37,729 nucleotides of DNA from an uncultured Trueperaceae bacterium (lineage in GTDB: Bacteria > Deinococcota > Deinococci > Deinococcales > Trueperaceae): NCBI GenBank assembly GCA_913057165.1, contig CAJXNS010000011.1:1-37729 (forward strand). Direction: 5' to 3'. How positions within the stretch are numbered: position 1 is the stretch's first letter; every line of letters starts with the position of its first letter. The translations under genes were made by a program, and so were the position numbers. This document shows positions 7,104-10,311 of the stretch, piece after piece. Below the pieces are notes generated by a model, which saw only the letters and a program-made list of their open reading frames with translations, was not told where the DNA came from and searched no databases.

Positions 7104-7586
7104 TCAGTCGACCTTAATATCGATCTTTCGTGAGCGCGATTCCGGGGTCTTGGGAAGGCGCAGCGTCAGCATGCCGTCCTTCACGTGCGCATGGACCGAT
7201 TCAACATCCACATTGCTCGGCAGGGTGACGGTCCGGCGGAACTCACCGCGCGGAATGGACTGAAGCCAGTAACGCTGCTTTTCGCCATCGCTGACCTCAG
7301 GCAGGCTGCCTTCGATGGTGAGTTGACGGCCTTCGATATGGACGTTGATGTCGGACACGTCCATGCCCGGGACCGCCATTTCCATCACCACATCGTTATC
7401 GGTCTCGAACAGGTCGGCTGGGTAGCCGTTCGACCAGCTGAAGGCGGTCACGTCGCTTGGCCAGAGGTTTTGGGTGGCGCGTTCAAACCAGGGGTCGAAC
7501 TCGCTCATCATCTGGCGGAAGCCTGGGGTGAGGTCAAGGGCTTCGCGTGGGCTGGGGCGGCGGCCGGTGCGGCGAATGAGGGCCAT
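7104..7586 (-). CDS. small heat shock protein, Hsp20/alpha-crystallin
   Basis: ATP-independent holdase chaperone that binds unfolding proteins. 160 residues. The alpha-crystallin domain spans about 52-147, from PADLFETDNDVVMEMAVPG to the GML-TLRLPK motif (138-146). The C-terminal I-x-I motif used for oligomerisation is IDI at 155-157. The ATG at 7586 (MALIRRTG) is preferred over one five codons upstream because GGAAGGAGT ends 5 bases before it. An 8-bp hairpin lies just upstream of the ribosome binding site. It follows the histidine kinase gene by 53 bases in the same direction. Confidence 0.94.
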   Translation of the reverse strand: MALIRRTGRRPSPREALDLTPGFRQMMSEFDPWFERATQNLWPSDVTAFSWSNGYPADLFETDNDVVMEMAVPGMDVSDINVHIEGRQLTIEGSLPEVSDGEKQRYWLQSIPRGEFRRTVTLPSNVDVESVHAHVKDGMLTLRLPKTPESRSRKIDIKVD

Positions 7587-7604
7587 GATGACTCCTTCCA
7601 TCGG

Positions 7605-7639: not shown

Positions 7640-8914
7640 TTAGTCGCCGTTTACACCTGTGTCGGTGCGGCCGTCACCGCCCACACCAGGCAGCCGAAGC
7701 TCGACGCGTGCACCCCCAAGCGGTGACGCCAAAGCGCGTGCCTCACCGCCGTGCGCGCGGGCGAGCGCGCGGGTGAGCGCCAGCCCGAGTCCTGAGCCGC
7801 CGGCGTCACGCTGGCGGGCTTCATCGAGCCGGTACAGCCGCTCGAATACCCGCTCGCGTTCGTGCTCTGGGACGCCCGGCCCATCGTCGTCCACCCACAC
7901 GGTGGGACCTCCCGCCTGATTGGACACGGTCACACGGACGGTGGTGGACGCGTGACGTAGCGCGTTTGAGATGAGGTTCTCAAGCATTTGCGTGAACCGG
8001 ACCGGATCGGCAAGCGCGTCGGCCTTCTCCCCTTCGAGGGTCAGGGTCACCTCCGACCGGCGAGGGCTGAATGCACCCACAATCCGTGCCGCCTGCTCGT
8101 GTAAGTCAATGGGTTCCTTTTCGAGACCCAGAGCCCCTTCCTCAGCACGGCTCAAGGCGCGAAGGTCATCGACCAGGCGCGTCAACATGTTGACCCGCAT
8201 GAGCAGACCCTCGGTGCGTTCCTGATCGGCGGTGTAGACGCCGTCTTGAATCGCTTCAAGTTCAGCCTTGAGCACCGCCAGTGGGGTTCTGAGTTCGTGC
8301 GCCACGTCGCTGGTCAAGCGGTCGCGCCTGCGCCGCTCTTCTTCCAACGCATCGGCGGTGTCATTGAACGTTCGGGCTAACTGGGCGACCTCAATGGGGC
8401 CTCCCGGTTCGGCGCGCAGCGACCGCTCACCCCGCCCGAAACGTCGGGTGACGTCCGCAAGGCGGTCGATCGGCCTCGCAATCCCGACCGCGAGGACCGT
8501 ACCCACCACCAGTGCGATCAGCAGCGCCAGGCCGGCAGCCCATGCTTGCGCCTCCCGGATCTCGGTCGCGACGACGGGATTAAACCGCTCCCCGAAGCGG
8601 AACGGTCCATCGTCGTCGTCCCAAAGATCGTCAAACCGGTCGTCATCGTCGTGGTCATTGTCATCGTCGTCATGGTCGTCGTCATCGTCGTCAAATTGAC
8701 GTCTTGGGGGAACGAACGCCTCGTCTTGCGTGCGGCCGTCCGGCAGGACGCGGCCGGGCTCTCGGCCGGGCACGTTTGACTCGATCACGCCGGGGGCACG
8801 AATGGCGTCGGGTAGACGCTGAAGCGCGACGCGCGTCGCAAGCAAGCCTGACAACCCAAGCGACAGGATGGTCACAAGCACCACCGCCAGCAGAATGCGG
8901 GTCCTGAGGCTCAC
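7640..8914 (-). CDS. sensor histidine kinase with Asp-rich extracytoplasmic domain
   Basis: 424-residue membrane kinase. Order: TM1 (7-27), extracytoplasmic region (28-122), TM2 (123-146), HAMP (147-195), HisKA with phospho-acceptor H206 in DVAHELRTPL, and HATPase with N-box NLISNALRHA (313-322), DDGPGVP (342-348) and GGSGLGLAL (372-380). All catalytic boxes are intact. The striking part is residues 75-102: 21 of 28 are Asp, with two His, just outside TM2. Such a patch would bind Ca2+, Mg2+ or transition metals, so cation sensing is inferred. The GTG start at 8914 overlaps the regulator stop (GTGA), so the pair is translationally coupled. Signal and metal are unknown. Confidence 0.93.
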   Translation of the reverse strand: MSLRTRILLAVVLVTILSLGLSGLLATRVALQRLPDAIRAPGVIESNVPGREPGRVLPDGRTQDEAFVPPRRQFDDDDDDHDDDDNDHDDDDRFDDLWDDDDGPFRFGERFNPVVATEIREAQAWAAGLALLIALVVGTVLAVGIARPIDRLADVTRRFGRGERSLRAEPGGPIEVAQLARTFNDTADALEEERRRRDRLTSDVAHELRTPLAVLKAELEAIQDGVYTADQERTEGLLMRVNMLTRLVDDLRALSRAEEGALGLEKEPIDLHEQAARIVGAFSPRRSEVTLTLEGEKADALADPVRFTQMLENLISNALRHASTTVRVTVSNQAGGPTVWVDDDGPGVPEHERERVFERLYRLDEARQRDAGGSGLGLALTRALARAHGGEARALASPLGGARVELRLPGVGGDGRTDTGVNGD

Positions 8915-9585
8915 GGTGTGGTCCGCACCCGGTAGCCGATGCCGCGGACGGTTTCAATGGCGTTGCCGCAGGGGCCAAGCTTGCGCCTGATTTGGCTGAC
9001 GTGCACATCGACCGTGCGGGGGTCGAGCGAATCCAGGTGCACAAGAACCATGAGCGCTTCGCGGTGAACCGCCGTGCCTGCATCGGCGACGAGGCGGCGC
9101 AGGAGGGCAAATTGGTTGGGTGTGAGGTGAACATCGTTGCCGCGGCACGTGACGGTGTGACCGTTCTCGTCGATCGCAATGCCACCCACCTCAAGTGAGC
9201 GTGGGGCACGAAGACCGCCTTGGGCGCGGCGCAAGATCGCGTCGACGCGCAGGACAAGCTCGCGTGGGCTGAACGGTTTGGTGATGTAATCGTCCGCCCC
9301 AACACCCAAACCCTCGAGACGATCGGTCTCATCGGCCCTGGCCGTGAGCATGGCGATGGCGACGTCGCTTTCAGCCCGCACGGTTTTGGCAACCTCGATG
9401 CCATTGGGTCCTGGGATCATGAGGTCAAGCACAATCAGGTCAGGGTCGAACGTGCGCCACATTTGCAGGGCGTCCCGCCCGTTCGCGGCGCGCTCGACCC
9501 GATAGCCGGCTTGCCGTAAGTAGGCATCAACGACATCAGCGATCGCCGTCTCATCTTCAACCACCAGAATTCGCGCACCACTCAT
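8911..9585 (-). CDS. OmpR/PhoB-class response regulator
   Basis: 224 residues. Receiver domain with acidic pair E10-D11, phospho-acceptor D54 (VLDLMIPGPNG), the Thr of AMLTARAD and Lys of ITKPFSPREL. C-terminal winged helix with LTPNQFALLRRLV and TVDVHVSQIRRKLG ending in VRGIGYRV. It should bind direct repeats spaced about one helical turn. The ATG at 9585 (MSGARILVVEDE) is chosen because the domain begins there and TAGGTT ends 7 bases upstream; the longer reading adds 21 untypical residues. Middle gene of the Asp-rich locus, coupled to the kinase. Confidence 0.95.
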   Translation of the reverse strand: MSGARILVVEDETAIADVVDAYLRQAGYRVERAANGRDALQMWRTFDPDLIVLDLMIPGPNGIEVAKTVRAESDVAIAMLTARADETDRLEGLGVGADDYITKPFSPRELVLRVDAILRRAQGGLRAPRSLEVGGIAIDENGHTVTCRGNDVHLTPNQFALLRRLVADAGTAVHREALMVLVHLDSLDPRTVDVHVSQIRRKLGPCGNAIETVRGIGYRVRTTP

Positions 9586-9592
9586 CGCAAAT

Positions 9593-9598
9593 AACCTA
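9593..9598 (-). promoter_or_regulatory. -10 element, leaderless promoter of the response regulator
   Basis: On the minus strand TAGGTT is followed by 7 bases and the ATG at 9585. It gives regulator and kinase a promoter separate from that of the Asp-rich secreted protein. Confidence 0.4.
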
Positions 9599-9614
9599 AC
9601 CTTGTGTGCCAATT

Positions 9615-9645
9615 CGGGTTCCGCCCAGTGTCTGGGCGGAACCCG
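9615..9645. terminator. 14-bp perfect hairpin between secreted Asp-rich gene and regulator
   Basis: CGGGTTCCGCCCAG-TGT-CTGGGCGGAACCCG. A 14-bp perfect stem with a 3-base loop lies about 40 bases after the stop of the secreted-protein gene and 16 bases upstream of the regulator -10. No T-run follows, so it may be an mRNA-stabilising end, a leaky terminator or an operator. Confidence 0.5.
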
Positions 9646-9684
9646 CAACCGGATCTCATGACGGCACGTGGTCGTCAGTGGACG

Positions 9685-10239
9685 TTAGTCGTCATCCCAA
9701 TCGTTGTCGTCACGGTCGTCGTCGTACCGATCATTGTCATACCGATCGTCGTCATAACGATCATCGTCGTAACCCGGCCGGTCGTGGTCAACCCGGCCGG
9801 CTTGCATCCAAGGCAGCATGACCGAGTCGCCCGTGAACGCGGCTCGCGTCCGAGCTTCGTACGTCCCCATCATGGTGACCGCACGCTCTTCGCTGAGGGC
9901 GCCATTGGCAACCGCCGCATCCACCGCCGCTTGGCGCTCGCTGACCAGAGCCGTCACAACATCATCGACGGTCAAGCCGGCCTCGAGCGTCAATTCTTCA
10001 AGCGACGCGCCTGTACGAAGCGCATCCTGAAGCAGCATGGGGGTCAAACCCAGTTCGCTTGCGACAACGTCGGTGACGTTCTGATCCATGTAACGTCCAA
10101 TAAAACCGCCTGTGCCGCGCTCGTGCATCCCGTGGGAATCGTCCATACCGTTCGGGCCCATCTGCGCGAAGACGAACGTCTTACCGGCAACGAGCACCAC
10201 CAAAAGGGTAAGTAGAACAACCTTGACTGTTTTCATCAT
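9685..10239 (-). CDS. secreted protein with helical module and YDDDR repeat tail
   Basis: 184 residues, function unknown. A signal peptide covers 1-25 (hydrophobic core VVLLTLLVVLVAG, cleavage after FVFA before QMG). A Met/His/Asp patch (MDDSHGMHERG) follows at 32-42. Residues about 55-135 form a helical module of the type ELGLTPMLLQDAL...GASLEELTLEAGLTVDD, seen in many small exported proteins of Gram-positive bacteria. The tail (157-184) is four YDDDR-like pentapeptides (one YDNDR) then DDNDWDDD, likely to bind cations. Two adjacent ATGs begin it, with GAGAGG 6 bases before the first. It lies directly upstream of a two-component system whose sensor carries a similar Asp tract. Confidence 0.85.
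   Translation of the reverse strand: MMKTVKVVLLTLLVVLVAGKTFVFAQMGPNGMDDSHGMHERGTGGFIGRYMDQNVTDVVASELGLTPMLLQDALRTGASLEELTLEAGLTVDDVVTALVSERQAAVDAAVANGALSEERAVTMMGTYEARTRAAFTGDSVMLPWMQAGRVDHDRPGYDDDRYDDDRYDNDRYDDDRDDNDWDDD
9712..9771 (-). repeat. four 15-bp tandem repeats coding YDDDR
   Basis: Four consecutive 15-bp units code the pentapeptide Y-D-(D/N)-D-R. The codons vary (TAC/TAT, GAC/GAT, CGT/CGG), so the amino-acid repeat is kept while the DNA has drifted. Confidence 0.8.
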
Positions 10240-10251
10240 TGATTCCTCTCT

Positions 10252-10311
10252 CGGTCGCTTTTTCGACCGTGGCGCTAACGTACGCCCAGAATCGTGAAGG
10301 TTGCGTGAAGG
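10252..10311 (-). promoter_or_regulatory. promoter of the Asp-rich secreted protein with 11-bp direct repeat
   Basis: On the plus strand CGTGAAGG occurs at 10293-10300 and again at 10304-10311, an exact 8-bp match with 11-bp period. Read toward the gene, a -10 element TACGTT (10277-10282) starts 10 bases after the repeats, and no good -35 is present. This is the layout of PhoB/OmpR-activated promoters, where the repeats replace the -35 region. The leader has a 6-bp hairpin CGGTCG-N6-CGACCG (10252-10269). Confidence 0.5.

Follow-up and report, generated by a model that had tools for sequence, protein, structure and literature searches.

The analyzed window (a stretch of 37,729 bp from an uncultured Trueperaceae bacterium) contains a signalling operon that is conserved in Deinococcota, has a predicted regulator site and is apparently undescribed. 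The signalling unit is real and wider than could be seen in the original prediction, and the aspartate (Asp) tracts that drew attention to it are a local variation on the conserved operon. The preferred reading, to which we give a probability of about 0.5, is that the operon regulates itself and serves envelope signalling in the manner of CpxP or DbfQ, and that poly-Asp was added to both outer partners and signalling would depend on a cation or a cationic compound.

The genes of the operon are located on the minus strand. The first gene (position 9685-10239) was called as an ORF encoding an exported helical protein of 184 aa; the protein begins with a hydrophobic N-terminal signal, and its orthologues occupy the same position. 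The next gene (position 8911-9648) encodes an OmpR/PhoB-type response regulator, the start of which is probably at 9585 (MSGARIL...), and is followed by the gene of a membrane sensor histidine kinase of 424 aa (position 7640-8914), whose GTG start overlaps the stop of the regulator gene. The domains found, namely the receiver and winged-helix output of the regulator (Pfam Response_reg and Trans_reg_C) and HAMP, HisKA and HATPase_c of the kinase, are those of an OmpR/PhoB-type two-component system. The NCBIfam models nearest to the regulator were PhoB, MtrA and BaeR, all below cut-offs. For the kinase, the nearest NCBIfam model was BaeS (E=1e-69) and the nearest structure was CpxA (4biw). According to the curated NCBIfam cut-offs, it is an equivalog of neither BaeS (235.5 bits vs. 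500) nor CpxA (160.7 vs. 486), and its score of 91.2 bits vs. a cut-off of 497 places it outside the PhoQ family.

A small heat-shock protein gene (Pfam HSP20; position 7104-7601, minus strand) is located 38 nt behind the kinase gene. No HSP20 was found beside the orthologous operons of relatives, and HSP20 may belong to the operon in the window's genome only. Note that the 38-nt gap contains a GC-rich hairpin (GCTGCGGC..GCCGCAGC).

Modeling of the exported protein using AF2 led to helices at residues 43-136 (pLDDT ~90; confident at 50-136) and a disordered tail. No PDB fold was matched at E<=0.001 by this model, which was obtained from four sequences only and leaves remote similarity possible; the only PDB profile match was the helix-pair repeat 8vd6. 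A CpxP/Spy/ZraP identity was rejected, since neither an LTXXQ Pfam domain nor, with this low-depth model, a CpxP/Spy fold match was found. A PepSY identity was also rejected, and neither PepSY nor CpxP/Spy gave a match in Pfam or NCBIfam. The protein has no Pfam match to DUF2680, and a Thermus-type relative scored 23.0 against this family, below the gathering score of 25. The first sequence scan of genome contigs with the exported protein gave no match.

Other Trueperaceae and genomes of the Thermaceae type show the same gene order of exported protein, OmpR/PhoB regulator and BaeS/CpxA-like kinase, so that the exported protein adjoins the regulator and the kinase in conserved synteny, as in DbfQ-type modules. 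In the genome G048 and its kin, the exported protein gene is followed by the kinase gene without a called regulator gene between them. Two Thermaceae-like loci (L085 and L141) have the order DUF2202, exported helical protein, kinase, and the response-regulator gene is apparently missing between the last two. In the tree of kinase and regulator, the window groups with three same-genus operons (support 98/95). Its branch is the longest one (1.09 vs. a median of 0.32), and some change in the window may therefore be relaxed drift.

A direct repeat, TTCRC-N6-TTCRC with 11-bp spacing, was found in 15 of 15 orthologous loci, where it precedes the exported gene or whichever gene comes first in the operon (a match of at least 9 of 10 positions was required, and some of these loci are close relatives and not independent). 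Shuffled sequences contained it in 0.16 loci on average and in two at most, and other spacings gave 0-3. A sixteenth locus, in G018, is without the repeat, and no exported gene was recognised ahead of the regulator there. The copy in the window, CTTCACGCAACCTTCAC (position 10294-10310, minus strand), is the sole match to the pattern used in the window's genome. Judging by the aligned upstream regions, it is followed by a presumed -10-like element, TACGTT (position 10277-10282, minus strand), which sits where relatives show CCTATC/CCTACC. Sites of OmpR/PhoB regulators usually have this form, with a repeat whose period is one DNA turn and a -10-like element behind it, and it is therefore very likely that the operon is autoregulated through the site predicted at 10294-10310. 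Conserved synteny together with this conserved regulator-type site bears out the earlier view that the exported protein belongs functionally with the two-component genes.

A consensus search of the relatives revealed a second repeat in G002, beside the operon and upstream of an exported DUF2202 gene. In G029, the box precedes the DUF2202 gene by 75 nt on a contig other than that of the operon, and in G048 and G052 the same box lies upstream of DUF2202 as the operon's first gene. In the remaining six of the ten DUF2202 loci, the sequence read ahead of the gene contained no such box, the locus in G061 being cut by the contig start, and the window's genome lacks DUF2202. The exported DUF2202 gene (L263 1309-2034, L264 72-737, L268 1315-2025 and L269 1330-2031) is thus a predicted second member of the regulon. 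Its relative with solved structures is MJ0754, and we take DUF2202/MJ0754 to have a ferritin-like metal-binding fold. The literature search on DUF2202 returned nothing relevant in the library searched. As to the nature of the signal, the DUF2202 link gives the sole clue, which suggests metals or oxidative stress.

These findings also fit a different role of the exported protein, which could be mainly an output, acting in the periplasm under stress as a Spy/ZraP-like chaperone or as a sink for cations, without direct contact with the kinase. Its gene stands first behind the predicted regulator site, HSP20 lies just downstream in the window's genome, the ferritin-like DUF2202 genes have the same predicted site, and CpxA-type systems with Spy-like outputs have been described (PMC6737893). 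However, the LTXXQ domain and the Spy/CpxP fold match are lacking, and tight co-location with kinase genes across genera would be expected of a regulator rather than of a single output gene. We consider a pure output role possible but rather doubtful.

Both Asp features of the original prediction were confirmed at their positions. The exported protein ends in YDDDR-YDDDR-YDNDR-YDDDR-DDNDWDDD, and 17 of its last 28 residues (157-184; position 9688-9771, minus strand) are Asp. In the kinase, residues 75-102 (DDDDDDHDDDDNDHDDDDRFDDLWDDDD; position 8609-8692, minus strand) include 21 Asp in 28. The kinase tract is placed between the hydrophobic stretches ~7-31 and ~122-148, and hydrophobicity and standard kinase topology put it on the outer side of the membrane, so that an acidic cluster of the PhoQ kind would face outwards. 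Among the loci with DDDD runs in the window's genome (1.78 Mb, 95% complete), most of which are isolated, the kinase has the highest Asp density. Only three genes of this genome contain the DDD..DDD pattern with a gap of no more than 9 nt; besides those of the kinase and the exported protein, this is the gene of an acidic protein of 100 aa on contig C15. With ~1750 genes assumed, we estimate a probability of ~0.7% that two out of three such genes would by chance be no more than two genes apart; the feature was picked after it had been seen. The joint occurrence of the tracts in one operon is, as had been claimed, unlikely to be accidental. The acidic protein on C15 (G000:C15 ~10130-10201; L112 1393-1695), the genome's only other Asp-clustered gene and the densest case outside the operon, has 16 Asp per 28 residues and a Glu run, and its gene is divergent from that of a small protein with a HELQHH (zinc-protease-like) motif.

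Several simple origins of the tracts were rejected. The GAC:GAT ratios of 16:5 and 12:6 in the tracts are near that of the whole window (500:210), and this codon mix speaks against pure trinucleotide slippage or a fresh pure microsatellite. A halophile-type acidic proteome does not fit the window proteins (DE 12.1%, KR 9.3%). The idea that one tract arose as a copy of the other was not supported either, since their similarity was not significant (reached in 0.42 and 0.07 of shuffles).

The tracts are not a conserved defining feature, since the orthologues are without them. The ~30 best kinase relatives, drawn from 61 genomes of the genus, family and order, have <=5 Asp per 28 residues of the sensor region, and the alignment with ten orthologues showed the tract to be an insertion present in the window only. 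In a set of 80 related kinases, almost all of which belong to other phyla, the maximum was 8 Asp per 28 residues, and the literature search on Asp-rich or polyaspartate kinases gave nothing relevant in the library searched. The tails of the exported orthologues are likewise not Asp-rich; several end in RGP..RW, and those in G002 consist of Asn/Gly/His-rich repeats. In this same-genus genome, the operon's exported protein (L077 2366-3031) ends in QANHG repeats. Since same-genus orthologues keep the operon without an Asp tract (<=5 Asp in 28), both tracts are most simply explained as gains on the window's lineage, and because relatives run the operon without them, they are dispensable for its basic function.

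This distribution leaves a shared-cation Asp system, proposed originally as the essence of the locus, only partly standing. The joint tracts are unlikely to be accidental and Asp-tailed exported proteins recur beside two-component systems, but orthologues of the same and other genera keep the neighbours without either tract. Of the refuting outcome set beforehand, namely homologues that lack the tracts or are separated, one half was found, as the tracts are lacking and the neighbours are retained. The tracts could instead be near-neutral low-complexity Asp expansions in disordered, solvent-exposed segments with no shared function, in an operon that would still be a real self-regulated unit. 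Absence of Asp from all orthologues, the varying composition of the tail at that position, the long branch of the window and the insignificant similarity between the two tracts agree with such expansions. On the other hand, the mixed synonymous codons suggest that Asp was kept at the protein level or is old, two gains fell in one operon while only one occurred elsewhere in the genome, and Asp-rich tails recur on an unrelated two-component partner in the same family, Trueperaceae. We regard near-neutrality as less likely than a function, yet by no means negligible.

The recurrence was found through a search of relatives for runs of seven Asp codons. Pairs of Asp-tailed exported proteins were located next to another pair of regulator and kinase in G019 (C19; L090 4619-8221), G035 (two loci, C264/C265; L091 and L092) and G012 (C137; L093), and a single one was located in G017 (C27; L095); further loci are L218-L241. 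Proteins of this family are small and often occur in pairs. Their tails contain up to >25 consecutive Asp, some being poly-Asp and others rich in Pro/Asp or Ser, and the N-terminal domain has no Pfam match and is unrelated to the helical protein of the window. Of 121 genomes, 28 have this domain, and almost all of these are Trueperaceae (~25 genomes); the window's genome is without it. A regulator or kinase lay within 1.5 kb in 23 of the 28 loci, and just beyond in a 24th (G012), the neighbours being a histidine kinase and a regulator of the OmpR type. A TPR-like, cytosolic-looking protein with a poly-Asp tail (27 of 28 residues; G014:C189 5066-7006, L094), cut by the contig end, differs from the exported ones.

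What speaks most for a function of the tracts in the window is this recurrence of Asp tails on exported proteins beside two-component systems, with the reservation that the kinases read at those loci had no Asp-rich sensor. A tentative extension is that poly-Asp on exported partners might be a recurrent Trueperaceae route to cation-responsive two-component systems, taken independently in the unrelated exported family beside a different kinase (~25 genomes) and, on both outer partners, in the window's lineage.

According to the preferred cation-dependent reading, the small exported helical protein would be made together with the regulator and the BaeS/CpxA-like membrane kinase. The phosphorylated regulator is predicted to bind the repeat at 10294-10310 and to switch on its own operon, which has strong footprint support. 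The exported protein would most likely act on the outer loop of the kinase and damp or tune it, by analogy with DbfQ, which binds the DbfS sensor domain (PMC12714742), and CpxP, which inhibits CpxA (PMC6737893). The Asp segments may bind hard divalent cations as does the acidic patch of PhoQ, for which binding of Mg, Mn and Ca is known (PMC4473727), and cation sensing by the tracts is a plausible hypothesis. A divalent cation or cationic compound could neutralise or bridge the two like-charged segments and permit docking, so that docking to the kinase, and hence signalling, would depend on the cation. The PhoQ patch also binds cationic peptides (PMC4473727) and poly-Asp would be expected to bind polycations, so the loop might detect these rather than metal ions; however, the loci read showed no peptide-resistance genes with a link to the repeat and the DUF2202 link points to metals, and we consider detection of polycations in place of metals improbable.

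The small predicted regulon, comprising the exported helical protein and the ferritin-like DUF2202 protein, makes the signal of the operon testable in laboratory strains of Thermus. One lineage with Asp gains on both outer partners and sister lineages without them form a natural experiment, so that simply removing or transplanting the segments would test what poly-Asp contributes to sensing.

A comparison with known systems indicated partial similarity to several of them. ZraP-ZraSR and UipA-type partners are also exported proteins encoded beside a two-component system and are metal-binding; the protein families differ, and in the window metal binding is a prediction. PhoPQ shares an acidic outer-side cluster on the kinase sensor (PMC4473727). 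However, the kinase of the window scores far below the PhoQ model cut-off, and its loop of ~90 residues contains a low-complexity Asp run and no detected PhoQ sensor domain. The CpxP-CpxRA and Spy-BaeSR systems of enterobacteria are closest by kinase models (BaeS) and structure (CpxA) and would share an induced exported helical protein with the negative feedback expected from it. Unlike them, the window has an exported protein without the LTXXQ domain or a CpxP/Spy fold match and a kinase below the BaeS/CpxA cut-offs; its order of exported protein, regulator and kinase on one strand also differs from that of the divergent cpxP. In DbfQRS of Vibrio cholerae and related PepSY modules, the genes of a response regulator and a membrane kinase likewise go together with that of a small exported protein. 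The outer sensor domain of the kinase is the target of DbfQ, and the module is widespread and syntenic (PMC12714742). In contrast to DbfQ, the exported protein of the window is helical and has no PepSY domain, and the operon differs from DbfQRS in its Asp tracts on both partners and its 11-bp tandem regulator site.
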